Positions 16,604 through 64,000 of a stretch of DNA of 64,000 bases are shown piece by piece (position 1 is the stretch's first letter; every line of letters begins with the position of its first letter). Made by a program: the position numbers and the translations under genes. The notes beneath the pieces are model-generated. The model had not been told where the DNA came from. It ran no database searches and worked only from the letters and a program-made list of their open reading frames with translations. The stretch lies in contig OX344753.2 of the NCBI GenBank assembly GCA_947034885.2, positions 29,590,347 through 29,654,346 of the forward strand, given 5' to 3'. Source of the stretch: Thuidium tamariscinum (lineage: Eukaryota; Streptophyta; Bryopsida; Hypnales; Thuidiaceae).

Positions 16604-16610
16604 TATATAA
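16604..16610 (+). promoter_or_regulatory. TATA-like box in family B copy 1
   Basis: TATATAA, in the context GGGTATATAAGGG. The same box is kept at 47,835-47,841 in copy 2, which supports a promoter role in the LTR. It would mark the U3/R border if the element is an LTR. Confidence 0.6.
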
Positions 16611-17244
16611 GGGCCCCCCTCGAGGTTGCCAGTACCCTTATTTCTAGCACCGACACTTTGTTCTTCTGCTACTCGTGCCACCAACACGGTTGGGGCACTA
16701 CTTGGACCAAGATTTTGGCCAAGTCTTGTTTGTGTTTAGTTTTTCTTCTTCAAATTTGAAGGCTTAAGGCCCCTTCAACTTTTATTTATTTTTCACATCA
16801 CCCAAGTTAGAGGCAAGGCCTCAATACTTTCTCTGCTACTAGTTCACTGAAATTTTGAGTATTGAGCGCCAAAGTTCGGTTTAAACATGGTCATGTGTAC
16901 CTCCTTTGGTTGCAAAATTCCAAAATACTAGGAAATTTTAAGAGTTTAAAGTGAAAGTCCGGTTTAAACACTATCATGTGTACCTCCTTTTGCGAATAAA
17001 ACTCTCAAAATACTACAATTATCAAGACATGGTGGAGCTTTGCACCCGTGAGACTTACTAAAACATTGGGAGAATTCTACTCTCAACTGTTAAAAACCAC
17101 GTAAGCCCTTGGAAGGAAATTAATTAGAACCAAAATTCTCGGGTTCCATTATTAAACCATTCCAAAGTGCACCCCCAAATTATTAGTTTTCAATTGGAGA
17201 GCATTCCCAAAATCCACATATTGGAGAATCCCCAAATTCCAAAT

Positions 17245-17480
17245 TTCATAATAAGAGGCGGACCAACACCCCGAGCGGACCAGCCCCCGGGCGGACAGCA
17301 CACCCAGGAGGACCAGCCACCCAGGTGGACAGCCCCGGGCGGGCCGGGTACCAAGGGGGCGGGCCGGGTATCGGAGGGTGGGTCGGTGGAGAGTCGGGCA
17401 CTGGAGAGGGAGTCGGGTTCTGGAGGGGAGTCGGGTCGCTGGAGAGGGGAGTCGGGATCAGTCCAGGGACTCAAGTAAGT
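17245..17480. repeat. GC-rich variable block inside family B copy 1
   Basis: A block of G/C-rich words (GCGGACCAGCC, CCGGGCGGACAG, GGAGTCGGG repeated about five times) within an otherwise AT-rich element. The matching place in copy 2 (about 48,400-48,760) has a different GC-rich minisatellite. Open frames on both strands here come only from lack of AT-rich stops. Confidence 0.7.
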
Positions 17481-34178: not shown

Positions 34179-34492
34179 TGTGGCAACCTAGAACTCACCT
34201 AAACAAGTTCTTAAGCAAAATACGGGAAGAGGGATCTATTCAATCCCCATTTTTTTTGTTGTTTCCTTAGTTTTTACGCACAATTAGGACCAAGACCGGA
34301 AACCGGAAAACCCAAGACCGAAAACCCGAAACTACGCTAAGGAACAGCGTAAGAAAACCCGGATTCCGCCCACCTAGCGACCGAGACCGGATAGGCAATG
34401 AGTGGCTACTGAGTCTAGAGATCGTCGGGAACTCTCCCACGTGACCAGACTGGTTTAAACCTAACGGTCAGTAATTAATGCTGGGAGGAAAG

Positions 34493-34499
34493 TATAAAA
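34493..34499 (+). promoter_or_regulatory. TATA-like box of family A copy A
   Basis: TATAAAA in the context GGAAAGTATAAAACCAGG, about 240 bp ahead of the coding region. The same box is kept in copy B (52,574-52,580, minus). Confidence 0.6.
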
Positions 34500-34729
34500 C
34501 CAGGAGAGTAGGGCCAGGTCTTGCCACTTCTTTGCACGTAGTTCGAGAAAGGGTCTTCCGGCTAGAGAGGGAGTATTCGGTCTATAGACAGAGAGAAGGG
34601 ATAGAAAAACTGTCAATCTGGTCTGGTGTAGAGTTGAGCGATTATCACAAAGCCATCTGAGAGATTCTTGAGTGTTGAGGGTTTAGTCAAGTTGGACCGC
34701 GCCTAGATAGTATAGGCGTAAGGCGAGCG

Positions 34730-36826
34730 ATGGCAAGTGAGGTGCAGGAGGGGATGATTCTAGCCTTCCGGAATGTGAATTCGGTCATGCCAATTGATGT
34801 GCAACAGAAGCTGGAGTTGGAGGAAGACCTTAGGCAGATGGGCTGCGAGGGTTTCATGGCGCGTCCCTAGAACCTGAAAGACGAGGCGATGGTGGAGGAG
34901 TTGCTGGACGGCCAGACCAACGAATGGAAGGGCACGGTCCGGGCGCTGCCAGGGGAGTGGAATGCGGCTATGTGGCGCAAGGTGTACGCCTTCGAGCAGG
35001 GCAGAGATGCGACGGGCACCCGGACGAATAAATTCCACCAGGGTAAGTTCCGAAGGCCCACCAATCCAAAGGATGGATTCACGGTAGCAGAGTGTATATC
35101 AGCTAGGCACAAAAGGCTCCTACGGTTCATGATGGCTATCCTGAACCCGGATAGGCCAAGTAGAATCACAGTCACCGTAGCCAACACCATTTTTGGTGCA
35201 CTATCGGGAGACCGGAAGATAGACTGGGGATTAGTCATGCGGGAATAGATGATTAAAATGGTGAATGGAATTGGGAAGTCAAAACCCTCTCCCATTTCAC
35301 CATTCTTATTTCACTTGTACCACTCGTTAGACCTCCTAAGGGAGGGAGAGAGAGAGACTTATGAGGTGAGAGCCGCAATGATAGAATACCAGATAGAGGA
35401 TCCGGAGGCCGACAAGGATCAGGACGATGAGGTCTCGGAGGAAGAGGGACAGGATGATCAACAAGAGGAACGACAGGAGAGGAAGGAAGAACTAGAGGTA
35501 GGAGAAGGAAGTTTGCCGCTAGAAGCCTCTGTGTTGGCAAGAGAGACCCAAGGAGTGGATCCGGTCTGGAAACAGGATCCCTTGCTAAGGATCCTGCGAG
35601 ACTTGGATGACTTTAGAAAATACCACCTGGAGGAGAGAGGGTTATTGCGGGGCATAAGCCAAGCCCTAGGCTCTATCCCTCCCTCCAAGATCATGGAGGT
35701 GTTGGGAGAATTAATTCAGGAGGCACATGATAGCCGGGACAGAGAAGAGGTACTCCGGCTGACGAACCAGGTCTCAGCCCTGAAGAGGGAGCTCCATCAC
35801 ACCCAGGAGGAGTTGGATGAAGAAAGACGCCTCACCACGCAGGCTCGGAACACACTCGGGGAGATCCGAGAGTTCATCACACATCCGGGCGAGGTCGTCA
35901 ACAAGGCCATGCTATTCGACAAAAAGGTGTTGGAGGCAGGCAAGATGGTAGGTCCACAGATGCTCATCGCTCTGGTGGCCTACAATAAGAAGATGGAGGT
36001 AGTTCTGGAGAAGTGGCGAACGGTCGTCACGGAGGTCCAAACTAGCGCTACTCCGGTCTTAAGACCGGAGGTGCAGAAGACGGAGGTGGAACACCCGAAG
36101 GAGCAACCCCCACCAGCTACTGATGAGGGAGAAGCCGGCGCGTCCGAGCTAGCGAAAGAAGAGGTGATCCGGTCTGAAGTAGTGGTGAAGGTACCTACCC
36201 CACAGACCCAGATCGAAGAGCCCCAGGTTTCTCAACCCGAGAAGACCAAAGAGCCGGAACCCGAGCCAATTGTGTTGAGGGAGATAATCCGGGGGACGAC
36301 ACCGCCAAGGGAGAAGACCAAGTTCATCACCTTGCTGGATGATTCTCCAAGCAAGTCATCACCCACGGTCGTCACACAACCGAAGACCGGAGGGGAAACA
36401 AAGGCGACGGTGCAGGTCCGCTCCATACTGAAGACCAGATCTGGATCCGGGTCACCAAGTAAGGGACCAGCCCGGACTGCCGAGAAAGTGGGAGAGTAGA
36501 CCCCACAAAGCAAGATAGTGTACCACCCGCCCATCACCGGATTCAAGAAGAAGACCACGGAGACATCCAAGGTGAAGCGAAAGGCCCGGGATGAAGAGGA
36601 CGAGGAGTCAGAAGAGGAAGATGAGGACTCGGAGGAAGAGACCGACTCTGGTGATGAGTCGGAACAGTACTCAGATGCAGACCAGGCATTGGCAGAGACC
36701 AAGGAGACCAGGGCCAAGGCGCGGGGTAAGACCAAACCTAAACCCAAGCCCATCAAGATGTATCAGTCTCCGAAGAAGCAGCCATCCCGGAAAGGTGCTT
36801 CGCCTATCAAGAGGGCGAGGAAGTAG
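34730..36826 (+). pseudogene. family A coding region, copy A (fossil)
   Basis: It is the counterpart of the 645-codon frame at 50,247-52,184 and clearly homologous along its whole length; see that entry for the protein's layout. This copy is broken at a few places. It lies downstream of the TATA box and ends shortly before the pyrimidine-rich second half of the element, which has no gene. Confidence 0.75.
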
Positions 36827-38477
36827 GGAAGCATTAATTTCAGGTAGATAGGAAGGCGGCTAAACCAGGATATATTTAGGTTAGGAACTTTTGAACTTAG
36901 ACTGGATCCAGATATGTAGGATTTGTGATCCTATTTTGTTGGTATTTTTGGAGTTTTGTGGAAGTCAACCCGCCCAAGTTGTAGAGGAATGTTACGTGGC
37001 ATTCTTGGCGGATGATGATTGATTCCATTTGCACTTTTAGGTTTTCTGGTAGTTTAGTATTTAAACTTGGTTCGTAATTGAATCCGGGCGCGCATTATGT
37101 TATCTTACTTTCGCAAGTTTTTGTGTTGCAAATACAAGTCAGAACCTTTCTGATTCATTCTGGAGTGGACTGTGTGCCTGGGACCTTGTCAAAGTTTCAT
37201 GGTGATGGTTAGGATTGCAGCCTTGTGTGGATAAGTGTGTGCCCAGATGTTCAGTTTATCCGGTCCCTGGACTTAAAGTGAATTCGGTTTTGATAGGGAA
37301 TTTGTGCAGGATCTCACAGTGTTTCTGGAACAGATCTAGGAAGTATTCGATAGGGATAGACACTTGTAGAGTCTGGGTTTGAGATCGGGAAGTACCCGGC
37401 CAAATGCCAACTGAATGGTGATCCGGTCTTTGTAGAAGAAAGAAGGACTGGTGAGGAGATGCAGCTCTCTTGCATAAGCTACCGCCCTTATTCTACTAGG
37501 GATTAGACTAACTGGGTAATCCGTCGTTGTAGTCTTTGTTAGGATTAGGCAGGAGTGCTTGTGTAACCTGTTGGGTCGGATTAGTCCCGGTCCAGTTGTG
37601 AGGTATTCCGGTCTGTTTGTAGTAGTAGTTTCTTTTTACTTATAAGTGGAACTTCTGACACTTTAAAACTTGAAGGGTAGGAGTAAGCTTCCTTCCTAAA
37701 CGCCCAAACAAGCAGATCCCTCTTGTTATCGAGGTAAAACTTACATTCGATTACTAAATCTAAGGACTGGACCAACTCTTAGTATCCGGTCTCTAGCCCC
37801 ATATCTAGTAAGGATAAGTATAAAGGCGAATGAAATATACTGGTATAATAGCTATTTAAGATTGGAAAGGATTGATCTGGTAATCAGGTCTAAGGAAGTC
37901 TTAGGAACCTTTGAGACCCGGACCGGATTAGTCGTTTGCTTGGGTTTTTGTTGTGGTAACCACTAACGTGTTCCGGTCTTTCGTCAACTTTCGACCAAAT
38001 CCTTTGGGAACGATACACGAGTCACTTTAAGGCTAATTTAGTACATTCTAACGCCTTGAAGAAGGAATCGTGCTTTCCTGTGCTACGACACATATTCTAT
38101 CGATTCCTTATTTTGTGCATTGTATAGAGTTGTTGCAAAAATGATGGATTATTGTGGTTTAGCAACGTCATTTGCTTGCAAGAGAAATGCTTCAATTGTT
38201 CACTTCTGAATCGGTCTTGTTCTCCGTGCTGTAAAAAGTCGATGGGGAAGCCCAATAGTAGTTGGAGTTATTTCTCTCTCGCTTCTTGCAAGTGAGGTTT
38301 TAGGGTTTAGGCCATGGCCGGGCGATTGTGCACTTTCATTTCACCTCTATATCTCGACCTCCATCGCGAGGACTGCTTCGATCCGCGTTTCTTTAGGATT
38401 TCGGAAGTTTAATTTGTCCTTTGTTTAGTGAACATAATACTATTGACCAACAGAGACTGTTTTTTTGCAACTGTAGG

Positions 38478-44940: not shown

Positions 44941-47834
44941 CTGCACATGCAGCATTGCATGTATGCGAACATTTAGCTCATGGGATGCTGCTCTGGTACT
45001 TGTGTATGTTTAATTTGCCAAAGACATTGTATACAAGTTGTTGTAGCACAAGAAAGCACAATTCCTTCTTCAAGGCGTTAGAATATACTAAATTAGCCTT
45101 AAAGTGACTCGTGTATCGTTCCCAAAGGATTTGGTCAAAAGTTGACGAAAGACTGGAACACGTTAGTGGTTACCACAACAAAAACCCAAGCAAACGACTA
45201 ATCCGGTCCGGGTCTCAAAGGTTCCTAAGACTTCCTTAGACCTGATTACCAGATCAATCCTTTCCAATTTTAAATAGCTATTATACCAGTATATTTTATT
45301 CGCTTTTATACTTATCCTTACTAGATATGGGGCTAGAGACCGGATACTAAGAGTTGGTCTAGTCCCTAGATTTAGTAATCGAACGTAAGTTTTACCTCGA
45401 TAACAAGAGGGATCTGCTTGTTTGGGCGTTTAGGAAGGAAGCTTACTCCTACCCTTCAAGTTTTAAAGTGTCAGAAGTTCCACTTGTGAGAAAAGGAAAC
45501 TATTACTATAATCAGATCGGAATACCTCACAACTGGACCGGGATTAATCCAGCCCAGCAGGTCACGTAAGCACTCCTGCCTAATCCTAACAAAGACTACA
45601 ACGACAGATTACTCAGTTAGTCTAAGTCCTGGTAGAATAAGGGCGGTAGCTTATGCAAGAGAGCTGCATCTCCTCACCAGTCCTTCTTTCTTCTACAGAG
45701 ACCGGATCACCATTCAGTTGGCATTTGGCCGGGTACTTCCCGATCTCAAACTCAGACTCTACAAGTGTCTATCCCTATCGAATACTCCCTAGACCTGTTC
45801 CAGAAACACTGTGAGATCCTGCACAAATTCCCTATCAAAACCGAATTCACTTTAAATCCAGGGACCGGATAAACTGAACATCCGGGCACACACTTATCCA
45901 TACAAGGCTGCAATCCTAACCATCACCATGAAACTTTGACAAGGTCCCAAGCACATAGTCCACTCCAGAGTGAATCAGAAAGGTTCTGACTTGTATTTGC
46001 AACACAAAAACTTGCGAAAGTAAGATAACATAATGCGCGCCCGGATTCAATTACGAACCGGGTTTAAATACTAAACTACCGGAAAACCTAAAAGTGCAAA
46101 TGGAATCAACATTAGCCGCCAAGAATGCCACGTAACATTCCTCTACAACTTGGGCGGGTTGACTTCCACAAAACTCCAAAAATACCAACAAAATAGGATC
46201 TCAGATCCTATTAATCTGGATCCGGTCTAGGTTCAAAACTACCTATCCTAAATATATCCTGATTTAGCCGCCTGTGAGCCCTCGAGATGGCACTCAGGAT
46301 TCTGGGTCCATTTTTCGCGATTAAATGGCGAAAATTAGTCAAAATATTCAAGAAAAAGACATAAAAAGAGTGTTGAGGGAGTTTTGGTGTCAGTCTATGC
46401 CAAAATGGTGGAAAACCAACTTAGATGGTGAAAAATTCCTAATGCTAGAAGTTTGAATCATTCTAAGTCTCCAAAGCAAGTATATATGAAGAATTAGCAA
46501 TTCCGGGAGAAATAAGGAATAGAGAGTTAGTCAGTCCTAGCGAATGTCTGTGCAAAGTCAACCTTTTAAAGATGCATAAGACATACTGACTAAGCTAAAA
46601 GAGTCTACTACAAGCATGGGAGAGTTACCAGGGCTTAAGTTCAATTTTGGAATAAATTGGATTTAAAGGAAAACCACTACAATGGATTTGGAGAATTCAA
46701 ATTTCACGAGACAAAAGATGGAGGATTGGAGATTGAAGACTACAGAGAGGTGTTCCAAGGGTAGGAGCAGGCCAGGAGCGAACGAGAATCAAACAATTGT
46801 CCAAGATTCCTGGGCATCGGGAATTAAATTGTTCAATTGGGCAAAGTAATTCCAAATTACTAAAATTAGAAAGGTGCAAGGTTGCGTGGGACTTACACCA
46901 AGAATCTAGGAGTACCCTAGATGTTACCCAGTTTATTTCGGATTTTTCCAAAATTCCACGTTGACTCCATGGGAAGTCAACCGCACATAGAAATGTTCGT
47001 AAAATCATAGAAATTACATATGATGCGGTAAAATCTCACTAAAAATTAGGATAGGTTTTTGTGTGCTTAATAAGTGCCCGGTCAAGTTTGAAGACATTCC
47101 GACATTCCCAACTACCAAAACTGGCATCGACATCGAAATTCACTGGAAGTTACAAGTTGGCAGCAGGTTGACCGGCGTACCACGAGCGAATGATGTCCGA
47201 TTGTCGCAAATAAGGAGTCATTCCTTACTCTCACGGACATTCCTAACAACCCTAGCTTGACAGATTCATCAAAATGCGCAAATCTTAAAAGTTAGATTTT
47301 TGACTTTTAATTGGAGTTATCGTAATTCCAATTTGGGTGCGCAAATGGCCTAGGAGTGAGGGGTGAGGGGTCCCTTAGGCTAATTGGGGTCTTCTGAAGA
47401 CAATGGCGCAGACGGTTTTCCATTTCGAGTTGTTCCCTAAAAGATAGAGAGGGTCAGCTCTTAGTTTGACTTTTTAATCGTTAATTGCGGTTAATTAGAA
47501 GTGATTTTGGAAATATCTCTTGGAAAATCAAAGATTGGATGTGGTCAAGATCTCTTTCTTGCGTAAAAAGCCATCTTTGGGCTAAAGAAAGACAATTTTT
47601 GAAATGACTTTGGATTAATTTGCAAAATATCTACGTAGATTAGGGTTAATTCCAAAATATTTTGGGTTAAGATCTTGGATTTGATTTGGCCAAGATGTCT
47701 TTGACAAAATGGGGATGTTTTTAGAAATTTCCACCATTAAACAACTAATATTTTGGAATTACATTAGGGTAGTTTAGGATAGAAAGTAACAAAGTGTTTT
47801 CACCGGCAATTACCGAAAGGGGCTCGGCCACGGG

Positions 47835-47841
47835 TATATAA
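47835..47841 (+). promoter_or_regulatory. TATA-like box in family B copy 2
   Basis: TATATAA in the context CGGGTATATAAGGGCC, at the position equivalent to 16,604. Confidence 0.6.
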
Positions 47842-48589
47842 GGGCCTCCCTCGAGGTTGCCAGTACCCTTATTTCTCGCACCGACAGTTTGTTCTGCTTC
47901 AGTGCTACCAATGTGGTTGGAGCACCACTTGGACCAAAATTTCTTGGCCAAGTTTTTGTTTAATTTCTGTTGTTACAACCTTGAAGGTTAGGGCCCTTCA
48001 ATTGATTCCTGTGTTCTCTATTGTGAAAGGGTAAGCCTTAATCTTTGCTACATCCATTCCGTGGAAATTTCAAGTATTAAGTACCAAAGTTCGGTTCAAA
48101 CACTGTCATGTGTACCTCCTTTTGCAAATAAAATCCTTAAAATACTATTGACAAAACTCAAGACGGCGAAGCTTTGAACTTCCTTCAAACAAGTTTATCA
48201 AAGGCAAAAGCCAAGGCCACCTAATTCTTTAGCATCGTGTTAAAATACAAGAGTGCGTTGAAATTAAACCCTCTCACATTGGTTGAGATAACCAAATTCA
48301 ACGAATCCTTCCATTAGCACTACACCAATATTGGGACATGACCAATGTGCGGTAGAATTCGTGGTACCAAGTGCTAAAAATTGTTCCATTTAATCCAAAA
48401 ATCAAGGCCAGAAGGACCAGCCCAAGGCCGAAGGACCAGCCAAGGAGCAGTCGGAGGGCCAGTAAGGAGCATTCGGAGCCCCCCCGCCCATCCAATCGCG
48501 CCCCGCCACGTGGCGGGCGCTGACGGGGCCCGACCGGGGGTCTGACCACCCCGGGACTGCCACGTGGCACCGGGGGCAGGGTACTGGCT

Positions 48590-48725
48590 CAACCAGAGCG
48601 GCACTGAGGGCGGGGAGATTGGCTGAACCAGAGCGGCACTGAGGGTGGGGAGACTGGCTGAACTAGAGCGGCACTGAAGGCGGGGAGATTGGCTGAACCA
48701 AAGCGGCGCTGGGGCAGGGAGACAG
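48590..48725. repeat. 41-bp GC-rich minisatellite in family B copy 2
   Basis: Units of the form AACCAGAGCGGCACTGAGGG + CGGGGAGATTGGCTG repeat about 3.5 times with few changes. Copy 1 has unrelated GC-rich repeats at the same place. Confidence 0.85.
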
Positions 48726-50246
48726 AACCGGGGGAGTCCAGGGGCTGGGAGCTCTCATGAACTAAACACACATACAAACGACACTCACAAACCACCTAAT
48801 CAACTTTTTTCAAGTAAGTGTATCCTCACAAAAATTTGCCATTGCAATCATTTAGTTTTGGGTTAAAATAAATAAGAGTTGCTAAAGAAACTTACAACTC
48901 CCAAATTTAAATCTTCACCAAAAACTTAACAATTGCAACAACAAGGAATATTGCTTCGGTTCCTATCATCTCAAAACTCCATAGCCATCATCTTCTTCAC
49001 TAAAATTGCAAAACATCTTGAAACTAAATGAAGAAGGAAGGAAGGAATTAGGAGAGTTAATACCACGGAATATACACACATGAAGGAATTTAGATTAAAA
49101 AACCAATATTCAAAGAATCTCACTATTGAATAAGGTTCTTTATTCTCTAAGCTATGACCTTTGGCAATTAAAAACTATTTTCTATAGAATCTTACTATTG
49201 AATTGGTTCTTGGTCTTTAGAATCTTCTACATTCTTTGGTCGTTAGTCATTAATTATATTCTTAGAAGATTTGGATTTTGTTGGGTTTTGTTTTATTAGG
49301 CCTAATAAGCCAAAACAAAACAAACAAATTGACAACTAATTTCTTTTCAAATTAATGCAAATTTAAAATCAATTAGATTTGAAAAGATTTGATGATAGTT
49401 TCTTGATTAAAATATTCTAATAAGCCAAAACAAAACAAACAAATTGACAACCAATTTCGTTGGAATTGAAGCAATTTCAAAATTAATTGGATTTGAAAAG
49501 ATTTGGAAGGAAATTTCCCATCCAAATTAATTTAATTCAATTAGAATTCGTTGGAATATTATAATATCAATTTAGGATTAAATTCAAAATTAAAACCAAC
49601 AAACTTTGAACCATTAGATTTTCGTTAAGAACCTTATCAACTAGGTAGACTAATTTAATTGTAGTAGTTCCTAATTACCGGGAATGTAGGAATTAAAAGG
49701 ATTACGCAATTAAATTAACCCTACATAACATTTAGTTTCTCTTAAAACAGGATAGAATTAATTAACCAACAACGTGAGAATTATTAATGGATTAGATGGA
49801 GAGTCGGGGTGATTTCGATGGCGAGGTTACAGGGGAATATTTACACATGATGATGTTTGACGACGGGACCATGGAGATTTACGCAGAGGAGGTAAACCGC
49901 TCACATTTGATTTTCATTCTCATTGTTTTACGCCTAAGTTTCTTTTTACCAAATGCCTGGAATTAGGTTTAGGTAACATCATTTGATAGAATAGAATAGA
50001 ATAGGGCCTCATGCCCTCATTGGGGTGAATTTTAGAATAGAATAGAAAGAATTACAACCACGAAATTAGATTAGAAATACTCAAAAGACGTGACTAAAAG
50101 AGTTCATTGTTTGGAAGGCTTTCTTTTTCACCCAATTAGAAAGAAAACTCAATTAGACACAAGACCCATGTGAAAAAACTCTTAGCTCAAGGGTGGAGTT
50201 AGGGGCACTCACACCGCCTTCCTATCTACCTGGTGTTAATGCTTCC

Positions 50247-52184
50247 CTACTTCCTCGCCCTCTTGACAGGCGATTCACCTTTCCGGGATGGCTTCTTCTT
50301 CGGAGACCGATACATCTTGATGGGCTTGGGTTTAGGTTTGGTCTTATCCCGCGCCTTGGCCCTGGTCTGCTTGGTCTCTGCCAGTGCCTGATCTGCGTCT
50401 GAGTACTGTTCCGACTCATCACCGGAGTCGGTCTCTTCCTCCGAGTCCTCATCTTCCTCTTCTGACTCCTCGTCCTCTTCATCCCGGGCCTTCCGCTTCA
50501 CCTTGGATGTCTCCGTGGTCTTCTTCTTGAATCCGGTGATGGGCGGGTGGTGCACTATCTTGCTTTGTGGGGTCTGCTCTCCCACTTTCTCGGCAGTCTG
50601 GGCTGGTCCCTTACTTGGTGACCCGGATCCAGATCCGGTCTTCAATATGGAGCGGACCTGCACCGTCGCCTTTGTTTCCCCTCCGGTCTTCGGTTGTGTG
50701 ACGACCGTGGGTGATGACTTGCTTGGAGAATCATCCAGCAAGGTGATGAACTTGGTCTTCTCCCTTGGCGGTGTCGTCCCCCGGATTATCTCCCTCAACA
50801 CAATCGGCTCGGGTTCCGGCTTCTTGGTCTTCTCGGGTTGAGAAACCCGGGGCTCTTCGATCTGGGTTTGTGGGGAAGGTACTTTCACCACTACTTCAGA
50901 CCGGATCACCTCTTCTTTCGCTAGCTCGGATGCGCCGGCTTCTCCCTCATCAGTAGCTGGTGGGGGTTGTTCCTTCGGGTGTTCCACCTCCGTCTTCTGC
51001 ACCTCCGGTCTTAAGACCGGAGTAGCGCTAGTTTGGACCTCCGTGACGACCGTTCGCCACTTCTCCAGAACTACCTCCATCTTCTTATTGTAGGCCACCA
51101 GAGCGATGAGCATCTGTGGACCTACCATCTTGCCTGCCTCCAACACCTTTTTGTCGAATAGCATGGCCTTGTTGACAACCTCGCCCGGATGTGTGATGAA
51201 CTCTCGGATCTCCCCGAGTGTGTTCCGGGCCTGCGTGGTGAGGCGTCTTTCTTCATCCAGCTCCTCCTGGGTGTGATGGAGCTCCTTCTTCAGGGCTGAG
51301 ACCTGGTTCGTCAGCCGGAGTACCTCCTCTCTATCCCGGCTATCATGTGCCTCCTGAATTAATTCTCCCAACACCTCCATGATCTTGGAGGGAGGGATAG
51401 AGCCTAGGGCTTGGCTTATGCCCCGCAATAACCCTCTCTCCTCTAGGTGGTGTTTTCTAAAGTCATCCAGGTCTCGCAGGATCCTTAGCAAGGAATCCTG
51501 TTCCCAGACCGGATCCACTCTTTGGGTCTCTCTTGCCAACACAGAGGCTTCTAGCGGCAAACTTCCTTCTCCTACTTCTAGTTCTTCCTTCCTCTCCTGT
51601 CGTTCCTCTTGCTGATCATCCTGTCCCTCTTCCTCCAAGACCTCATCGTCCTGATCCTTGTCGGCCTCCAGATCCTCTATCTGGTATTCTATCATTGCGG
51701 CTCTCACCTCATAAGTCTCTCTCTCTCCCTCCCTTAGGAGGTCTAACGAGTGGTACAAGTGAAATAAGAATGGTGAAATGGGAGAGGGTTTTGACTTCCC
51801 AATTCCATTCACCATTTTAATCATCTGTTCCCGCATGACTAATCCCCAGTCTATCTTCCGGTCTCCCGATAGTGCACCAAAAATGGTGTTGGCTACGGTG
51901 ACTGTGATTCTACTTGGCCTATCCGGGTTCAGGATAGCCATCATGAACCGTAGGAGCCTTTTGTGCCTAGCTGATATACACTTTGCTACCGTGAATCCAT
52001 CTTTTGGGTTGGCGGGCCTTCGGAACTTACCCTGGTGGAATTTATCCATCCGGGTGCCCGTCGCATCTCCGCCCTGCTCGAAGGCGTACACCTTGCGCCA
52101 CATAGCCGCATTCCACTCCCCTAGCAGCGCCCGGACCGTGCCCTTCCATTCGTTGGTCTGGCCGTCCAGCAACTCCTCCACCAT
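50247..52184 (-). CDS. family A coding region, copy B (645-codon frame)
   Basis: The frame reads whole for 645 codons. Residues 1-170 form a conserved globular part: WKGTVRALLGEWNAAMWRKV, TVAKCISARHKRLLRFMMAI, LNPDRPSRITVTVANTIFGA, LSGDRKIDWGLVMREQMIKM and PISPFLFHLYHSLDLL. This pattern recalls the 'putative plant transposon protein' domain linked to plant Ty3-type elements; I hold that loosely. Residues 175-240 are very acidic. About 280-400 look like a coiled coil (ELHHTQEELDEERRLTTQAR). A Pro/Glu/Thr-rich linker follows. The C-terminus has an acidic run (EEDEESEEEDEDSEEE) and a basic tail (KPKPKPIK, ending KRARK), suggesting a nucleic-acid or nuclear role. Copy A keeps the same layout. No enzyme domain is seen. 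It has a TATA box upstream but expression is unknown. Confidence 0.65.
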   Translation of the reverse strand: MVEELLDGQTNEWKGTVRALLGEWNAAMWRKVYAFEQGGDATGTRMDKFHQGKFRRPANPKDGFTVAKCISARHKRLLRFMMAILNPDRPSRITVTVANTIFGALSGDRKIDWGLVMREQMIKMVNGIGKSKPSPISPFLFHLYHSLDLLREGERETYEVRAAMIEYQIEDLEADKDQDDEVLEEEGQDDQQEERQERKEELEVGEGSLPLEASVLARETQRVDPVWEQDSLLRILRDLDDFRKHHLEERGLLRGISQALGSIPPSKIMEVLGELIQEAHDSRDREEVLRLTNQVSALKKELHHTQEELDEERRLTTQARNTLGEIREFITHPGEVVNKAMLFDKKVLEAGKMVGPQMLIALVAYNKKMEVVLEKWRTVVTEVQTSATPVLRPEVQKTEVEHPKEQPPPATDEGEAGASELAKEEVIRSEVVVKVPSPQTQIEEPRVSQPEKTKKPEPEPIVLREIIRGTTPPREKTKFITLLDDSPSKSSPTVVTQPKTGGETKATVQVRSILKTGSGSGSPSKGPAQTAEKVGEQTPQSKIVHHPPITGFKKKTTETSKVKRKARDEEDEESEEEDEDSEEETDSGDESEQYSDADQALAETKQTRAKARDKTKPKPKPIKMYRSPKKKPSRKGESPVKRARK

Positions 52185-52573
52185 CGCCTCGTCTTTCAGG
52201 TTCTAGGGACGTGCCATGAAACCCTCGCAGCCCATCTGCCTAAGGTCTTCCTCCAACTCCAGCTTCTGTTGCACATCAATTGGCATGACCGGATTCATAT
52301 TCCGGAAGGCTAGAATCATCCCCTCCTGCACCTCACTTGCCATCGCTCGCCTTACGCCTATACTATCTAGGCGCGGTCCAACTTGACTAAACCCTCAGCG
52401 CTCAAGAATCTCTCAGATGGTTTTGTGATAATCGCTCAACTCTACACCAGACCGGATTGACAGTTTCTCTATCCCTTCTCTCTGTCTATAGACCGAATAC
52501 TCCCTCTCTAGCCGGAAGCCCCTTTCTCGAACTGCGTGCAAGGAAGTGGCAAGACCTGGCCCTACTCTCCTGG

Positions 52574-52580
52574 TTTTATA
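52574..52580 (-). promoter_or_regulatory. TATA-like box of family A copy B
   Basis: TTTTATA on plus, that is TATAAAA on minus, conserved with 34,493-34,499. Confidence 0.6.
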
Positions 52581-52939
52581 CTTTCCTCCTAGCATTAATT
52601 ACTGACCGTTAGGTTTAAACCAGTCTGGTCACGTGGGAGAGTTCCCGACGATCTCTAGACTCGGTAGCCACTCATTGCCTATCCGGTCTCGGTCGCTAGG
52701 TGGGCGGAATCCGGGTTTTCTTACGCTGTTCCTTAGCGTAGTTTCGGGTTTTCGGTCTTGGGTTTTCCGGTTTCCGGTCTTGGTCCTAATTGTGCGTAAA
52801 AACTAAGGAAACAACAAAAAAAATGGGGATTGAATAGATCCCTCTTCCCGTATTTTGCTTAAGAACTTGTTTAGGTGAGTTCTAGGTTGCCACACAAGTG
52901 AAAAACAAAGGCAGTGGAACAACAAATTACTCTAAACCC

Positions 52940-54105: not shown

Positions 54106-54347
54106 TCGTGACACAAGTTCGTCCAATTACAACGTGTACACAATGCCAATCCACACTCAATTCCGCAGCGCCTTGCGTACAAGCGTCGTCAAGCTGGGCA
54201 GGGAGTTGTGTCTGGCACTCTCTTCAGTTCGACGCGCACATTGAGATGGAAATGAGAAAGTTCCAGGGGTTGAAGATGTTCTAGTTAGGTGCACGCAGCT
54301 AGTCTAAGGCGTGATGATGGGCAGCGGATTTGGCGGCTAGCAATAAA

Positions 54348-55078
54348 GGGTCATTGCAAGAAACACCTGTCCTATTTCATGTCACAATTTGAACCACTTT
54401 TTTGTTGTCTACAATAGCTTTTGGAGATTAAGTTCAATGAAAATGAAATTTTTATTGAACATACCTAACTTGAAGTTTATTAGATCCCTTATTTTTCAAA
54501 AATTAAAAAAAATCATTTTATATTTAAAAAACATTTTCGTTGAGCGTCACAAAATTACGTTTATGGTTATCATTACGTTCGCAGTGTCTAAATTTAATGA
54601 TTTGATGACGAAACTTTCATGGTCTATTTGCATAGGTGTAAAACCTACAAATTCCAAAAAAAATTTAAAAATATGTTTTTTTATGTCCTCCACATGAGTA
54701 CAAATTTATTTTTTTGGCACACAATTTTTGAACAATGGTAATGGTTCTAAGATCGAACTTTTGGTCAAATCTCATCAAAATCAACTTTCCTCAAATGGCC
54801 AATTTTTAGTTTTTCTTAAAATTGATTTTCCTATTTTTTACAAATTAAAATGTCGAAATACTAATTTTCATGAGATTTTGCACTTTTCTGGATTTCCTAC
54901 TTAGAGATTTTTCCTATACTTTTCCTTTCTAGGGTATATTCTTCTTAAAGGTTTATACATGAAACATATTTTTCACTTTTTTTAAAACTTGTTTTTCTAA
55001 TTTTAAAGTACTCCCGAAAAAAAAAAGACTACGTTGCAAAACGCTACACTTTTTGGTAGGTGTTTCTTGCAATGACCC
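54348..55078. mobile_element. 731-bp inverted-repeat element (MITE-like)
   Basis: It has perfect 21-bp terminal inverted repeats starting GGGTCATTGCAAGAAACACC. TAAA flanks both ends (54,344-54,347 and 55,079-55,082), reading as a 4-bp duplication or as TAA plus a chance match. The interior is AT-rich and non-coding apart from a chance 102-codon frame. A PIF/Harbinger (TAA-type) or other TIR superfamily origin is possible; I cannot decide. The perfect ends suggest a fairly recent insertion. Confidence 0.85.
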
Positions 55079-55082
55079 TAAA

Positions 55083-55506
55083 TTCGAGGATTGTGCAATT
55101 ACTGTGAGACATGTCATGGACTAGACAATGCAGGGTTGCTAGCGTGTGAGCCTAGGAGCGTGAGCCTGTGAGCCTGTGAGCTTGTGAGTAGGAACTTTTT
55201 TTGGCCAAAAAAGTGGATGAGGATCTGTAACCGTGGATTTACCTATGACCGTGGTTTTGAATAGTGTATACTGCTTTTGGAGGGTTATTTGGAATTTTGG
55301 ATATTTCCTCCCGCAGAAACCTTAAGTTCGTCAAAAGAGCTTGTAATAATGAATTTGTGTTGGATTTAAAGTTCTTTATTCAACACCAAATTTATTATGT
55401 CTTTGGTTCGAGTTGGTTTAGGGTTCTTCAATTTATATTTAGTGAAAATATATTGTATTTCAAGGAAGATAAAGTGTATATTTTACTTGCCATTTTTATT
55501 CATACA
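55083..55506. other. AT-rich intergenic DNA
   Basis: A short run of GTGAGCCT words lies at 55,145-55,187. An 81-codon frame at 55,264-55,509 has no support as a gene. Confidence 0.4.
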
Positions 55507-55847: not shown

Positions 55848-58800
55848 CTAATTTGCAGTAGACTCTGTCGCAGAATCCATGTCACTAGAAGACTCTAAAG
55901 TCTCTCTACCCTCAGACGCTGATCCATCTATGAATTGTAAGACATTTAGAGCGTAAGAAGGTTTGCGTTTTTTGGATTTAGAAGTACCAAACTCAGCAAA
56001 CGCTGATGCTAATTGCTCTACATAGATTGGAAGATCGAACGGCTTCTCCGGGCTTGAGATGAGTCTTTGTCTCTTCTTCACTTCGTCCTCCATGATTACT
56101 CCGTCGTTGCTACATATGCACCAAATGCATTGTTAGATAAATGAAACATTCCAACTACAATGAAAATAGAAAATGGATATATAAAAAAACTTACTTACAG
56201 GGTTTAGGGCGCCGAACGAACTTCCGAGGCACAATCACAACAACATCTTGATCTTGTGATAAAACCACAGGTGCTGCCTTTGAACTTGGAGCCATGATCA
56301 CTGGAGCATCTACCTTCTTCATTGGCAAGAGGATGTGTTGAAAAATCCTCTTGTCTTCTTCCAACGCAACAATATGACGCCCCGTTGCACGGCATACAGT
56401 AATAGATGCACCTACCACAAACCAGAAGGTGAATCATTTTTGTAATCATTGACTACATAAAGTAGAGATGGTTTCAAGACATTCAAGAAATCAGAACTCA
56501 CCTGTAGATGCAGTACAATCAAGTACTATGTCTCCTTCATCAGTGGTGCCTTCGATGATGAACTGAATGAAGCGGGCGTCCTTCTCTCGAGCTCCGCGCC
56601 AAGCCATTCGATCCATATCATTCATCAGCATGGTGTCCTCCGTTGTGTAATTCATGAGCAGGTCATCGCGACGGAGGTCTACCTTGGCTTTCAGCATAGT
56701 TTGAGAACGCCTGAACTGAAAATTTGATTTCCCTCGATCTCCTAGATGCTTGACAAACAGTGTAATGCCAAACTTCAAAGTCTGCAAGCACAAGCAAAAC
56801 TGACATGAGAATAAGTAACAAAAAAAGTAACTAATTCATCTTCTAATGAATATTTTCAAACATTAAGAAAGTAATACCGTTTGATCTGGTTGAACTGCTG
56901 ATGTAAGGTGCATGCGGTTCATGCCCATCCACTCTTTCATCTTCCTGATGTTTGGGTACTCTTGAAGAAGTCCTGCAATGGTTTCCAAGAAGTCTTGGCC
57001 CCAAGAATGGAACACAACAATGCAGCCGTCGTCCTGCAAATGCTTGTCTGCAAATGCAAAAGCTTGAAAGATGGTAAAATACTCCTTATCTGCGTTCCAA
57101 TAAGGAATGTGCTTGGAGCCCCCAATGTCTGGTACAGGCAAGTTCTCTTGGTAGTCAAATATCATAAGATCAACTCCTGGATGCCAATTGACAACCCCAC
57201 CATAAACTCTTGCTTTTCCTACCACCATCTGCAAGTTCATTTCTTCAATATATGAGAATTTGATGAATAGAAATACAAAATAATACTCTTTTCTTGATCC
57301 AATTGAACTGCACAATACAGTGACAATGACAAAGATTACCTTCCGCAGAAACTCCATGACCTCGGTGTAACAATTTGATCCCCGTACACCTTCATTGTCT
57401 ACCACTTCTCCAATGGAGACACCCAATAGTAACTCCTCGGAGGTGACATCATCATCATCACCAAGGGCAATGACTTGGGTCCCTTGAGTGATGACTTCTT
57501 TCGTAAAGTCAGGAAGTACCGCCTTCCTCTTCAATCCTCCCTGAGATGCACCTTGCATCTGAGAACCTTCATCCAATGCTGATGAGGCTGGAGCGCCACT
57601 GCCATCTACTACTTTCTTCCCTTTTGCCCGTTCCTTCTCCTTCTCCTTCTCCTCTAACTTTGCAAGACACTCGGCTTCTTTCTTCTCCTTGTTCTCCAAA
57701 GCCAACTGAATGCGAGCAGCTTTTCTTCTATCATTAGTCTTCCTCCTTGCAATGGCCTTTTGCCTCTGCTTCTCAGTGAGGCCAACAAACTCATCAACCT
57801 CCATGGTCACGGTGCCAATTCCCTCCAAAGAATTCCGCAGCTCTACCTTAGACGGATGTGTATAAGAAATAAGGCAATCAAGGTACCACCCCCCACCACT
57901 AAGATGAGCCGTGGTGAATGTGCGAATTTGATTCGCCATGAACATGCAATCCGATGAGTTGCGGTCAAGAAATCCAGATAGAAATGGAGGAAGGTCTGCT
58001 TTCTCAATGGCACCTTTTGCTTCTAGCTCATACTTGAAGTACCTGCCATGAGCAATGATGTGGTAAGTAATAGAAGCTTGGAAGACAAACAATGATAAAG
58101 ATACAATCTACAAGCAAAACAAAAAGAAACCACATTTGAACCCAAAAAAAAATCTCATTTAAAAAGTCGTTATTTCAATTCCAGTGATGGAAATTGGGGG
58201 GTCCCAGAGGTACCTCTTGGACATCCGGCGGATCCGACGGATGTCCAAGAGGTACCGCTGGGACCCCCAAAATATTGAACATCACGGAAAAAAAAAAATA
58301 AGTAGCACAAAAAAGTTGAAATTCAGAGAGTTGTGCAATAAGTAGGAATGAAGACAATTAATTATTAGGAAGAACTCACGGAAAGAGAACCCTACGCACA
58401 GCATGATTGGCCCCCTCAAAAGTGTGGAAGTTGTCACTTTTCTTGAAGTAGTTAGCTCCTCTCAACTGTACCATGAAACCTTGATCCCAAATCTTCCTCC
58501 TCCATCCTTCCAAATAGTCCACTAACGTCTCGGGCTTTGAGGGAAGCTTCATGTTGATAGGAATGTTGTCTTGGCTTACCACCGCCTCAAAGTATTCAAG
58601 TGCAGCATCCTCAATCTGTTGTAATTGATAAACAAATTATAAACCATTCTAAGCAAACAATAGTGGTTCAATTTCAATACTCAAACATTTATAAGAATGC
58701 CTTTCTCAAATCGAATTTCAAGAATGTAGCATGTGGTGATAAGAAGTGCTTACCCCAGCATACCAGACACATCGGTTTAGAAATGGATCAAGTAGTAATT

Positions 58801-61800
58801 CAGATACTGGTTTCGGTGGGAAACGCCTTGACTCCCGTGAAAGGATGGAAGAATTCCACCACTTCAAGAACTTGATTTTATGAGCCGGAGTCGTATTGCA
58901 TATTGCAACCATCTGCAACTTCTCCAAGGTCATCTCAGGAATCTCATTTGAGATCCAATGCTTCTCCACCTACACCAGAGAAAAAAAAATTAGATTTGTA
59001 TGGGATTTTCAAGTGACATTTCTCATTTTATTATGAAATGGAGAAATTACTTACTTCTTCCAAAAATCCAGGCGTATTAGCTAGATTTGCCACCACTAAC
59101 AATTTGGACATCTTCGAGTTCAACTTTCCAGTCTTCTCTTTTGCCCCATCTCTCATTGCTTGTGCAAGACCTTCCGCAGTGTTCTTGCCCTCTGGAGTGA
59201 CCTCATTGTATTTGCGAGCAGCTGCGTCAATGGCTTGAGATATTTCTTGCTGAGAAAATCAAGTTCCTAAATGACTTGAAATTAGTACCTCAAAAATTAA
59301 TAGAAAACATTAGTCAAATGAAAATTAAGAAACATGGGAAAGGAATATCTCACCCGGAAAATAAAGGAAGTGAAGACCTCTTGTGGCATAGAATACCACG
59401 TCTTCTTGGTTTTCGGTAGTCCACACCGCTTCAACTCTGACGGCCTCAACATCTCATTGAATCGTCCAATAGGTAACAACCCATACTTCTGAACCTGGTA
59501 TATGTTGTGAATCATATTCGTCTTCACATGAGAGCCTTCCGTTGATCTGTCATACAAAACAAGTTTCTCAATGTTGTGTTCATCGTGAATCCATATTTTG
59601 AGATTTCTACTAAATTATGAATTGAAAGCATAGAAATTGAGGGTTTAGGGTATTCCATACTTGTTAATGTCATGCATGACATGCATGGTAAGCTCGATTC
59701 TGCCCTTTGTCTCCAAGACAATTGAATCCACACAATAATGCCATTTCCTGTCATTGGAGTGTCTCCTGGAAATGTAGTTCATCCATGAGATGAGACGGTG
59801 GTTACCGTCACAAACATAGAACTTCAGGTTCCTTAAGAACCTCAACTCCGGCTTCGACTCCAAATGGGCAATGAATGTACTGTTTTTTTCTTTCCAAAAT
59901 GGATCCCACTTGTCCATCTCTTCTTCGGTGAACTCGGAGCTCTCCCCAGCTTCGTTTGTTGTAGTCACATAAAAAACTGTTGCACCCTCATGGTAACCAA
60001 CTGCAAACTCGTACTCGAGCAATTCCAAATCAGAAGAAAGGGTAGGTCTCACCATCGGCATAGACACCATTCGACACAAAGGAATTTGAAGCCGGAATAA
60101 GTGATCCGGCTTCATTCTTAGGCTTGCTATTGTGTTCACGGAATCCCCTTTTTGGAACTGTCGCAAATCATCCTCCAACAAGTCCTTGTCCTCTTCTGCT
60201 ATGAAGTCATACAACACATCTTGCTCCAACACATCTTGTCCCTCCTTAGAATCCTTGGGTACACTTGAAATCTCTTGTTGAATTGTCTCTTCCGTGTTTG
60301 GAGTCTCAAGAATAGTGTCTTCTTGAGAAAGGTTGACTGGTGACACATCCATCTGCAAAATCAAAAAAGAAATCAATGTCTACAAATCTAAATGTGAGGA
60401 GTCAAAATCTAAGTCAATTCAAGATCCAATGGAAACCTATATTCTTTGAAAGTATACATAAAGAAAACTTTAGTAATTTATAAAATTTCAATAGGGTTTT
60501 ATATAAAATATGTATAGTTTAAAATAAAGCTAAATCCACTTAGTCTATCTCTATATCCCCTTCTGAGTCTGAGCTCAAGTAGATGAACATTGGCTCCTGT
60601 GGACCTGTAGGACCACTATGAGTACACATACAAAACTCTTGTTGTGGTGGACCATCTACTGTGATAGAGGTTTGTGACTCTGAGCTATACTCAGTGTCAA
60701 AGCTCTCTAGAGACGTGAATCTTCCTCTCTTATACAGAATCTCTAATTGCCTTGCAAAATGTCATTTACTGCGAGCCCTGATGTCACTCACTCGACTCGT
60801 CACTGAACTCTCAAAGGCATCTGCTGCTTGCGATGCTGCATCCATGATGTCATCAAAACTTACCAAGTCTTCACATGGAGCTTGTGTGTCCTCTTCGGAG
60901 TCACTTGAAACATCAACATTTCGATTCACTCGTGCAGGGAACTGGGATGGACCCGCTCCATGAGTCACCAAGGCACTGTCAACTGGTGCTAAAGGTGAAG
61001 AGGCCCCTTCTTCACGTCCTTCCTGTTTTCAAAATCACAGTCCCAAAAAAATTAATTTACTTAGAAAATACATAAAGATAGAACAAATTGGAAGTCATTC
61101 ATGGACACACTTGAAAGTATAGAAGCCCATTACTAAGAGATAGATGATCTCAGGGTTTTATAGCACTAAAGACAAGACTCCCATCATTCCAAAGACAAGA
61201 CTCCCATCATCTTGGACTTTGATTCATTCTACATTCTTTATTGGCACCATGAAATTTAGTCTAGTTAGCCATATACTTTGGAACAATAACAATAAAAATA
61301 TATGAAAGACTTCAAGCGAAGGCATTTCTAATCAAGAACATTCAAAATTCATTAACATACTACAATTCCAAAATCTATAAAATCGAAAATTTTTAGTAAA
61401 TGAAGAATCTTTGAATTCCGCTAATTCGTTGAAATCATTGTAAAATTAACCAAAATTTCATTTTTTCCAAAAAAAAAAAATATTTTATTAAATTTTGGAG
61501 TCTGGTACTTGAGACCGTGAGGTCTCCAAGATCGGGGCCCGGTGACCGTCGGATCCGACGGTCACCAGGCCACGATCTTGAAGACCTCACGGTCTCAAGT
61601 ATCAGACGCCTGTAAAGGCTTAACTAATTAAAAAAAATTATTTTCATTTTTTTTTTCTTAAAAAATATCTAAAAAATACAGCATATATATATATAAATCA
61701 AAATATTAATTTCGATTTAAAATTAATGAAAAAAAAATTAATGAAAAAATTAATGAAAAAATTTTTAAAAAAATTAATGAAATTTTTTTTTTAAATTTAA

Positions 61801-62697
61801 AAAAAAATTATAGCCGTTAGATGATGGAGATCCTGGGGTCCCCATGATCGTGGCCGGGTGACCGACGGATCCGACGGTCACCAGGCTACGATCATGGAGA
61901 CCCCAGGATCACCATCATTTGACGGCTGGAGATCCTTCTCCCACATGCAATACATGAAAACTAGAGTTCAATACTCTTAACGTATCTTCATTTTTAGATC
62001 TATAGATCATAACCGAACTTCCAAAATCCCACTTTCAAACTTAAAAATGATCGTGATAAGAGGTCTGCAACTCGCATTTGACGTCCAAAACTTCTGTAAA
62101 TAGGAGCTAGTTATCAAAATGAGATTGTGCATCGACAAAACTCCTGCCTGCCTGAGATCATCATTGAAATCCTAGCATGACCTGGTTTCATGAATGAAAT
62201 TTTGAAAAAAGAAACAAAAAATCCCCGTAGGGTTGCATTCTTCGGGGGTCCAGACTTTGGCAGTCCGAGGTAGCTTGGATCCGAGCTACCTTGGACTGCC
62301 AAAGTTTGGACCCCCAAAGTAAGCAACCCTGCGGGGATTTTTTTTAAATTCTTGATGACAGAACAACGACACCAACCGTCGGAACCTGGTTCGGAGTGAT
62401 CCCGTGTACATCGACGCAACTACTGGATTCTCTTGTCCAACCTGTTGTGGAAGTCTGGGACTTTGCAACCAAGAACTAAAGAACTCCAAACACAAAACTA
62501 AAGACGCCGACCTTGTATCCTATCGTAGGAAGACCAGGAAATCAGAGGATTCCTTCGACATGACCGAGCACTTGCGTAGGTGAGAAACAAAATGAGTTGA
62601 GTTTAACCTTGGAGCTCTTCTGCAGTTTCCTTCTTGCAGCTGGAGTTGGTGGCGTCGATGAGCCCTCCCGCGCCCGGCTTCGAGTAGTTCGTGTCAT
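55848..62697 (-). CDS. ParB-like / beta-class DNA methyltransferase-like protein, 12 exons, 1221 aa
   Basis: Exons on minus: 62,608-62,697; 60,792-61,022; 59,661-60,352; 59,354-59,546; 59,055-59,249; 58,754-58,969; 58,380-58,615; 57,340-58,042; 56,878-57,228; 56,502-56,781; 56,195-56,411; 55,848-56,109. All borders are GT/AG and all phases agree with no stop. Residues 1-107 are basic then acidic. About 287-293 read VCDGNHR inside FYVCDGNHRLISWM, the heart of a ParB/Srx-like fold. About 705-760 are a charged coiled coil. Residues 853-970 hold a motif-IV-like strand (VDLMIFDYQENLP) and DDGCIVVFHSWGQDF. About 1050-1085 hold the SAM-binding motif I (GDIVLDCTASTGASITVCRA, then GRHIVALEED). This order, catalytic motif before motif I, is the beta class of N4/N6 DNA methyltransferases. 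DPPY is replaced by DYQE, so activity is doubtful. The upstream two exons are less certain. Confidence 0.8.
58194..58270. repeat. intronic hairpin 1, GGATCC-centred
   Basis: A near-perfect palindrome in the intron 58,043-58,379. The arms read TTGGGGG.TCCCAG, GGTACCTCTTGGACATCCG and meet at GGATCC (58,230-58,235). Only about three mismatches and one extra base were seen. Confidence 0.92.
61500..61607. repeat. intronic hairpin 2, GGATCC-centred
   Basis: Arms of about 51 nt: GTCTG.TACTTGAGACCGTG, then AGGTCT.CAAGATCG and GGTGACCGTC, meeting at GGATCC (61,551-61,556). About five mismatches. Poly-A/T rich DNA lies on both sides. Confidence 0.93.
61813..61925. repeat. intronic hairpin 3, GGATCC-centred
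   Basis: Arms of about 54 nt: GCCGT.A.ATGATGG, then GATCCTGGGGTC and CCATGATCGT, then GGTGACCG.C, meeting at GGATCC (61,867-61,872). The inner 10-12 bases of each arm are shared with hairpin 2; the outer parts differ. Confidence 0.93.
62215..62345. repeat. intronic hairpin 4, GGATCC-centred
   Basis: Arms of about 62 nt: AAAAATCCCCG.AGGGTTGC, then GGGGGTCCA.ACTTTGGCAG, then TCC.AGGTAGCT, meeting at GGATCC (62,277-62,282). About seven mismatches. Confidence 0.93.
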
Positions 62698-63869
62698 CCT
62701 TGTGTCCTGAGTAGAAGCAGAAGAATCTCAAACATGCGCATGGAAGTGAAAATGAGAGCACAGGTCCTCCGACGCTCAGAATCCAGCTCCGAAGTGGATC
62801 AGTTTCTCGAGGTCAGGAGCCTTGTAAGCGAAAGCCTTGCATGCCAGGCAGGCACCAGAATGGCAACATTCCCTGTCAGGATAAGAAATCCGAAACATTC
62901 TCTCCGAATGCGAGGTGGATACGCGCCGCGGGTGATCCGCGAAGGCGAGGATCCCATGTCGATCTGTATTCTTTGCTCCTGGTCTCTCCGCGCGCCGCAA
63001 GCCTCCCGAGATTTTAGTTTTCTAAATCTGCAGATTCTCAACGGACCTCCCGAGGCACTTTTTGACAGACTGAAGCAGCCGCATGATAATGTGATATTAC
63101 GAGGTGATAATACGGAGGTGCCGTGACGTGGCCTGTCACTGCTGACGTGGCACGCAGTAACAGGGCAGGACCCATATGAGTCCAATTTTTGTCCTCCTTG
63201 TGCCACGTCAGAACGAATGCGTGTCAATTTCTTATTCGTCATGAGGTAATCCAGTTTTCAAATTTAATTTTTTAATGGCATTGTCAATACAGATGATGGA
63301 ATATCAAAATCAACTTTTAAGTAGAATTTAATTAATGCATAATCATTCTTCATTTTTTGGTCAAGAAAAGATTTCCTATTGATGTTAATGATTTTTTTTG
63401 TGCCTCTAACAGCTATATATTTAGTGGTGAATGATTAAATTTTGGTTATTCTTTAATCTAGTTGTTCCTTTGTCGGTTATTTGTCCTCTTTGTCTTGAAT
63501 TAAGGTTGGTATAGGTTTGGATACTTTTGAATACGTCAATACTATAGCCAAGCTCAAAATGAAAAGAAAATCGTATATGGTAGTCTATTAAGAGCATCTT
63601 GAAATATTGAATCTTACAGATCCTCAACGAAAAGGCTAAGCTTTGTACACTGAATTCTTAGCTCTCGACATAAGATATCTCTCTCATAAGTAGTGAAAGT
63701 GTATACATTACACCCTTCAAATTCCTATTCCGCCTTCAATAATCTAATTGAGATGCGTACATCAAAATTCTGGAAGATATAAAATACCGTGACACTCTTC
63801 CAAAAGTTGCGGAGATAACAAAATTGAAGAGGCAACACTAAAGTAAAGAAATTTTCTAGCGGATCTTAC
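62698..63869. promoter_or_regulatory. upstream region of the methyltransferase-like gene
   Basis: The first 500 bp are clearly more GC-rich and CpG-rich than the flanks (CGCGCCGCGGGTGATCCGCG near 62,920), as expected for a promoter or a CpG-rich 5' region. Long frames on both strands here (62,734-63,242) follow from this composition and have no family match. The rest is AT-rich and without a gene. Confidence 0.45.
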
Positions 63870-64000
63870 AGTTCTGTAACTCTGTGCTGTTCCACCTGCC
63901 TCAATATTGGTATTGGCTTCGTACATCTCCTGGACTGCTTCACCGTCGTGGATCTGGTCCTCCTCCTCCCCACCAGTGCTCTCTCCTTCGAAGCGAAGGG
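63870..64000 (-). CDS. exon of an unrecognised gene cut by the window edge
   Basis: The minus frame is open from the edge and reads RFEGESTGGEEEDQIHDGEA, VQEMYEANTNIEAGG and TAQSYRT, then meets a good GTAAGATC donor at 63,869. The acidic composition and the donor make an exon plausible. No family is recognised, and no matching downstream exon could be fixed within 63-63.8 kb. Confidence 0.4.

Follow-up and report, generated by a model that had tools for sequence, protein, structure and literature searches.

A moss gene joining a ParB-like motif to a beta-class DNA methyltransferase-like domain in which both signature motifs are altered

Proteins that combine a ParB-like region with an N4/N6 DNA methyltransferase domain have been described in transposons of brown, green, and red algae (PMC12477816, drawing on Iyer 2011 and Petroll 2025). 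One of them, the transposon-borne accessory protein of Sola1-1_Ec32 from Ectocarpus, has 1104 residues and is predicted there to make N4-methylcytosine (4mC) or N6-methyladenine (6mA). We analyzed a 64-kb stretch of the moss Thuidium tamariscinum (contig OX344753.2, positions 29,590,347 to 29,654,346; the whole stretch is called the window below) that carries a gene whose core encodes 1114 residues. Compared by description only, the moss and Ectocarpus proteins are close in length, and both hold the two domain types in one eukaryotic protein. They differ in that the moss protein has no DPPY-type motif and in that no transposon ends were found for its gene. It is probably a protein of a known kind, that of the algal-transposon ParB-methyltransferases, in which both methyltransferase signature motifs are altered. 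A preliminary description of the locus had called the beta-class motif order an otherwise bacterial and phage theme, which the algal cases contradict. In our literature search, PMC12477816 was the only paper found to describe the architecture in a eukaryote, and no land-plant case was found in print; the search returned ranked results only and was weak on subscription journals.

Three other systems invite comparison. Marchantia DN4MT1 and rotifer N4CMT (PMC8885841, PMC12344493, PMC8566409) are eukaryotic proteins of bacterial amino-methyltransferase origin, as the moss domain appears to be. Both are described there as active 4mC enzymes, unlike the moss protein; N4CMT carries SPPY, and changing SPPY to APPA abolished methylation (PMC8885841). 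DN4MT1 is described there without extra N- or C-terminal domains, again unlike the fusion studied here. The third, likened by description only, is a bacterial fusion of a ParB-type region and an adenine methylase, in which the ParB domain is reported to have nicking activity.

The moss gene lies on the minus strand (62697..55848). We rebuilt its model from open segments and splice-site scores: 12 exons splice into 1221 codons with no internal stop, and all 11 introns are GT-AG, exactly as in the preliminary description. Shuffling the nucleotides of the spliced sequence 500 times gave a mean of 72 stops (minimum 49) and its five other frames hold 44–70, a comparison that is generous because the splice sites were picked to keep the frame open. 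The earlier argument that so open a frame is hard to obtain by chance is borne out by the missing stops, with the reservation that the comparison is generous and that the two 5′ exons are weak. The gene is real. Its core, ten exons and 1114 codons from an ATG at 60352, is secure because composition, splice sites, and homology across a junction agree. The core exons have a G+C content of 43–48%, versus 26–38% for their nine introns, which are 85–337 bases long and all GT-AG (60352 to 55848). G+C by codon position is coding-like in the core (0.51/0.37/0.49), and the core ATG directly follows a good acceptor (TTTTGCAG, then ATG). The two 5′ exons, which would add 107 N-terminal codons, are doubtful: their G+C by codon position (0.61/0.59/0.38) is unlike that of coding sequence, and the first donor (AAG/GTTAAA) is poor. 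The true 5′ end may lie outside the window because a further open minus-strand stretch (about 63766-64000) is cut by the right edge. This stretch is acidic in sequence, has a possible donor at that edge, and could belong as an upstream exon either to this gene or to its neighbor. No second copy of the gene was found within the window. The exons, in transcript order, are the following:

62608..62697, minus strand: proposed 5′ exon 1 (weak), ATG at 62697; joins in frame, weak donor
60792..61022, minus strand: proposed 5′ exon 2 (weak); joins in frame, codon-position composition not coding-like
59661..60352, minus strand: core exon, ATG at 60352, ParB-like DGNHR at about 59809-59795; open frame, acceptor TTTTGCAG before ATG, sub-threshold DUF1015
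59354..59546, minus strand: core exon; GT-AG, frame-consistent
59055..59249, minus strand: core exon; GT-AG, frame-consistent
58754..58969, minus strand: core exon; GT-AG, frame-consistent
58380..58615, minus strand: core exon; GT-AG, frame-consistent
57340..58042, minus strand: core exon, linker with charged stretch; 703-nt open exon
56878..57228, minus strand: core exon carrying DYQE (about 57156-57145) and, beyond it, HIPY in the N-terminal half of the methyltransferase-like domain; from hhalign placements of the DPPY column
56502..56781, minus strand: core exon with the motif X region and the start of motif I (LDCTAST); N6_N4_Mtase match continues into the next exon
56195..56411, minus strand: core exon with the remainder of motif I, then motif II (GRHIVALEED); frame, profile match
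55848..56109, minus strand: last exon, with stop; frame, splice model

We searched the product against profile collections. The C-terminal half of the methyltransferase-like domain shows clear sequence homology to beta-class N4/N6 DNA methyltransferases. Pfam N6_N4_Mtase (PF01555) matched an 88-residue C-terminal piece with E 6.6e-6 and 26.7 bits, which equals the curated cut-off of 26.7. The 252-residue region from 57228 to just past GRHIVALEED (E 8.7e-6, 26.3 bits) and the whole 1114 residues (E 1.5e-4, 22.3 bits) scored below it, so that full membership of the family appears borderline. The match covers residues 183–236 of the 252-residue region and bridges the exon junction 56502/56411; this splice is therefore supported. 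The string LDCTASTG...GRHIVALEED, found as previously described along with FDYQENLP and FHSWGQDF, crosses the same junction.

Other collections pointed to the same class. Five PHROG families annotated as methyltransferases matched with E 2.9e-6 to 2e-4, followed by three families at E 0.13–0.26, one of them a methyltransferase. NCBIfam CcrM matched with E 1.8e-5 and 23.9 bits, far under its own cut-off of 830 bits. A search of PDB sequences returned DpnA weakly (E 0.0023); amino-methyltransferases made up four of the eight sequences listed, and the other four (E 0.13 to 0.94) were unrelated. A hidden Markov model (HMM) of seven phage methyltransferases gave 38.8 bits, versus 5.6 for the best of 2000 shuffles, a control that is not independent, since the seven were chosen because they or their records matched this protein in tblastn. 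With the same HMM, the C-terminal half (motifs X-I-II) alone scored 40.4 bits and the N-terminal half, which holds DYQE, scored −1.6 bits. In tblastn, the methyltransferase domain matched 213 phage records at E ≤1, all below 60% identity (20 of the 213 listed), and the whole 1114 residues gave one weak methyltransferase match among plasmids (E 0.07). Motifs X, I, and II follow one another in the sequence by profile; motif IV is placed by alignment position, which varies with the settings. The protein thus resembles beta-class enzymes of PF01555 such as DpnA and CcrM in its motif X-I-II half, at the curated cut-off, and differs from them in lacking DPPY and FxGxG and in an N-terminal half that is not detected alone. 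The earlier assignment to the beta class is supported by the Pfam, PHROG, NCBIfam, and HMM results (and weakly by the PDB sequences), with a signal that comes from the C-terminal half.

Both signature motifs depart from those of the class. A pattern search of the 1221 residues found no [DNSH]PP[YFWH]; the sole PP-aromatic string is PPF at residue 636, far upstream of the methyltransferase region. The S-adenosylmethionine (SAM) motif I, FxGxG, is likewise absent from the 1221 residues. Motif I of the beta class has the form DPFxGSGTT, and similar strings occur in our phage alignment; the moss protein reads DCTASTGAS, aligned to D-F-x-M-G-S-G-type strings of the seven phage methyltransferases. 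This alteration adds to the preliminary description, which had remarked on DPPY only. The position of HPTQKP reads GAREKD, whereas motif II retains its acidic residue (ALEED).

The preliminary description had stated that DYQE replaces DPPY. Permissive local hhalign alignments (four of nine settings) paired DLMIFDYQE with DMVLSDPPY, a strand in a phage enzyme. A global alignment (one setting) put HIPY in the DPPY column, and MAFFT set the PY of DPPY on the same PY. The four remaining settings, including the default, aligned only later parts and did not reach the DPPY region. We favor DYQE, since it follows a hydrophobic strand (VDLMIF) just as DPPY does in the phage enzymes; FHSWGQDF lies downstream of it in the same exon (56878..57228). 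With either placement a DPPY-type motif is absent, and judging from the alignments the catalytic position is most likely DYQE, or else HIPY. Normal methylation appears doubtful: with both signature motifs altered, the sequence points to a methyltransferase domain that is inactive or strongly changed.

The ParB-like patch is in effect a single DGNHR motif in the first core exon. DGxHR-like strings form the ParB/sulfiredoxin pocket motif with its conserved arginine. Pfam DUF1015 matched this region with E 0.006–0.056, below its cut-off; further matches were phrog_20480 (unknown function, E 0.076) and DNA_pol3_a_NII (E 0.19). tblastn of the region against phages gave no match at E up to 10, and a single match against plasmids (E 0.4) was judged unconvincing. 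Structure prediction without an alignment, run on two contiguous exons, gave a mean predicted local distance difference test score of 38.9 for one and 35.0 for the ParB-like exon. On sequence grounds the ParB assignment is likely, and we infer a ParB-type function from it. The middle region matched no PHROG family, and we regard as chance its weak matches to a pair of related phage head proteins (6iat, E 0.026; 8egt, E 0.62) and to a chaperonin (E 2). Three scans of viral contigs and two of genome contigs returned no relatives. In the seven records behind seven of eight loci, scanned with the aim of obtaining reference sequences only, neither PF02195 nor PF06245 was found (0/7 each).

Taken together, we see about an even chance that the gene encodes an accessory protein of the giant-algal-transposon kind, transposon-borne or transposon-derived, whose degenerate methyltransferase acts as a DNA-binding or structural module. 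Such a protein would begin with a ParB-like region that binds nucleic acid and end in a beta-class N4/N6 methyltransferase domain, with a long middle region separating the two. Its gene would either still sit in a transposon, with ends that lie beyond the window or have decayed, or derive from one. Without the proline-proline-aromatic catalytic motif and the FxGxG motif, the domain would bind DNA or serve a structural role, perhaps sensing SAM, and would not methylate; a binding or structural role is most likely because both motifs are lacking. We thus infer a transposon origin and a loss of activity. In favor of this account are the intact spliced frame, the methyltransferase profile matches with their shuffle control, the absence of both motifs, and the transposon-rich surroundings described below. 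Several observations weigh against it. The vicinity of the gene yielded no transposase, and the captured flanks yielded no terminal repeats with a target duplication; the window end cuts the 5′ flank, of which it includes only 1.3 kb. Near-identical 12-base inverted pairs between the flanks numbered 17 (50 shuffles gave a mean of 5.9 and a maximum of 17), but not one of them has a duplication of at least 2 bases, and none of the three CACTA-type end pairs listed for the window has a target duplication. The fully open 1114-codon gene speaks against simple decay. Taken alone, the half of the methyltransferase domain with the catalytic position is not supported by any profile. ParB_N (PF02195) was not listed at E up to 5 or 10 in a Pfam search whose program filters remove most matches above about E 0.1. 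The profile search proposed in the preliminary description thus recovered N6_N4_Mtase, at the cut-off in the 88-residue piece, and no ParB profile; of the ParB-like patch claimed there, DGNHR and a sub-cut-off DUF1015 match (E 0.006 at best) remain, which is weak support overall.

How the gene reached the moss may also be told without a transposon stage. A less likely alternative is that a bacterial or phage ParB-methyltransferase was acquired long ago by the plant lineage and kept by the host as a catalytically dead DNA-binding regulator. The multi-exon gene is intact and no transposon ends were found, as expected of a host gene, and the sequence matches are to phage and plasmid methyltransferases. 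However, the sequence searches covered prokaryotic and viral collections, so that the match list is biased, and algal transposons already carry the architecture (PMC12477816); for this last reason the direct bacterial or phage domestication suggested earlier is not our first choice. The opposite history, in which a transposon gene was inactivated recently, the motif changes being the first signs of decay while other members of the family keep DPPY, would agree with the transposon-rich region and with the change of both key motifs. We consider it improbable: 1114 codons contain no stop or frameshift, and decay should hit the frame as readily as specific motifs.

The remaining alternatives concern the protein itself. 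It may still transfer methyl groups by way of a non-canonical active site, either to DNA or to some other substrate, for example RNA or protein. The X-I-II order and the acidic residue of motif II are kept, and the catalytic position would hold a proline-tyrosine pair (HIPY) should the global alignment be correct. Yet DYQE or HIPY stands for DPPY, DCTASTGAS for DPFxGSGTT, and GAREKD for HPTxKP, and the rotifer APPA mutation cited above shows what a change at this site can cost; we hold activity to be no more probable than recent decay. Finally, two neighboring genes, one ParB-like and one methyltransferase-like, may have been wrongly fused, with the methyltransferase part starting at the ATG at 57228. 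That exon does open with ATG right after its acceptor, and the preceding 111-nt intron (between 57340 and 57228) is also open in frame. Against this, the exon upstream stays open as far as a usable donor and splices on in frame, and both domains are joined in the Ectocarpus protein as published (PMC12477816), which makes a false fusion very unlikely.

The gene's span also holds four near-perfect zero-spacer palindromes of 78–128 bases, G+C-rich and centered on GGATCC; elsewhere in the 64-kb window no such palindromes were found:

58194..58271, no strand assigned: palindrome centered on CGGATCCG, in a core intron; palindrome scan and RNA folding
61497..61610, no strand assigned: palindrome centered on CGGATCCG, within proposed intron 1 or else 5′ of the core gene; palindrome scan and RNA folding
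61812..61927, no strand assigned: palindrome centered on CGGATCCG, within proposed intron 1 or else 5′ of the core gene; 77% alike to 61497..61610 over 111 nt
62216..62343, no strand assigned: palindrome centered on TGGATCCG, within proposed intron 1 or else 5′ of the core gene; palindrome scan and RNA folding

The three in the doubtful intron 1 lie 1.1–2.0 kb upstream of the core ATG. With spacers of up to 12 bases allowed, the whole window has seven palindromes of this strength; the other three lie in a tandem repeat at 11.6–12.2 kb and have spacers of 1–7 bases. Apart from the 77% pair, the palindromes have in common mainly their center and a G-GGTC string. The string CGGATCCGA has four matches, versus 0.23 expected, two of the four being the two strands of one site. 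As RNA, each palindrome folds far better than its own shuffles (z −11 to −20). In the two similar palindromes, both arms changed at 4 of 43 positions and one arm at 7, so covariation is not clear. The palindromes may be foldback elements. Their location at the gene of a ParB-like protein suggests candidate binding sites, as an idea for testing only. A bolder version is a long shot: a plant-lineage ParB/pseudo-methyltransferase would have abandoned methylation for sequence-specific DNA or palindrome binding, with the GGATCC palindromes within and 5′ of its own gene as cis sites, in a self-regulating partition-like or silencing system drawn from a transposon.

The window is transposon-rich, with nested long repeats and, between 22832 and 25189, frames for a CACTA-type tnp2 transposase (Transposase_21, E 1.2e-65) and then DUF4218 (E 9.1e-27). 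Two diverged copies of a 3.7–3.9 kb TG...CA element (46273-50213 and 15032-18694), each flanked by a 5-base duplication (CCGCC and CAAAG, respectively), look like solo long terminal repeats. The copy at 46273-50213 interrupts a long inverted repeat (34179-38090 versus 45039-52894) in one of its arms. A 2.7 kb unit occurs in opposite orientations at 34179-36859 and 50214-52894, the two copies being 97.5% alike: the copy at 50214-52894 has a 651-residue open frame (50250-52202), the other is split into shorter frames, and none of the frames tested matched Pfam at E 0.01. A possible miniature transposon, a 743-base stretch with 27-base inverted ends (93%), lies at 54342-55084, close to where the gene ends on its 3′ side. 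An open minus-strand frame at 3372-4175 matches RNase P/MRP subunit p29 (E 3.9e-22) and is probably a normal host gene. Tandem arrays lie at 10407-10851 (67-base units, 6.2 copies) and 11596-12265 (212-base units with internal palindromes).

The altered motifs may bear on how ParB-methyltransferase accessory proteins work. If relatives share DYQE and CTASTG, they would form a family of eukaryotic proteins in which an inactivated amino-methyltransferase is joined to a ParB-like region. This would suggest that transposon accessory proteins of this kind act by binding DNA and not by modifying it, and the published idea that such proteins mark their own element would become testable.

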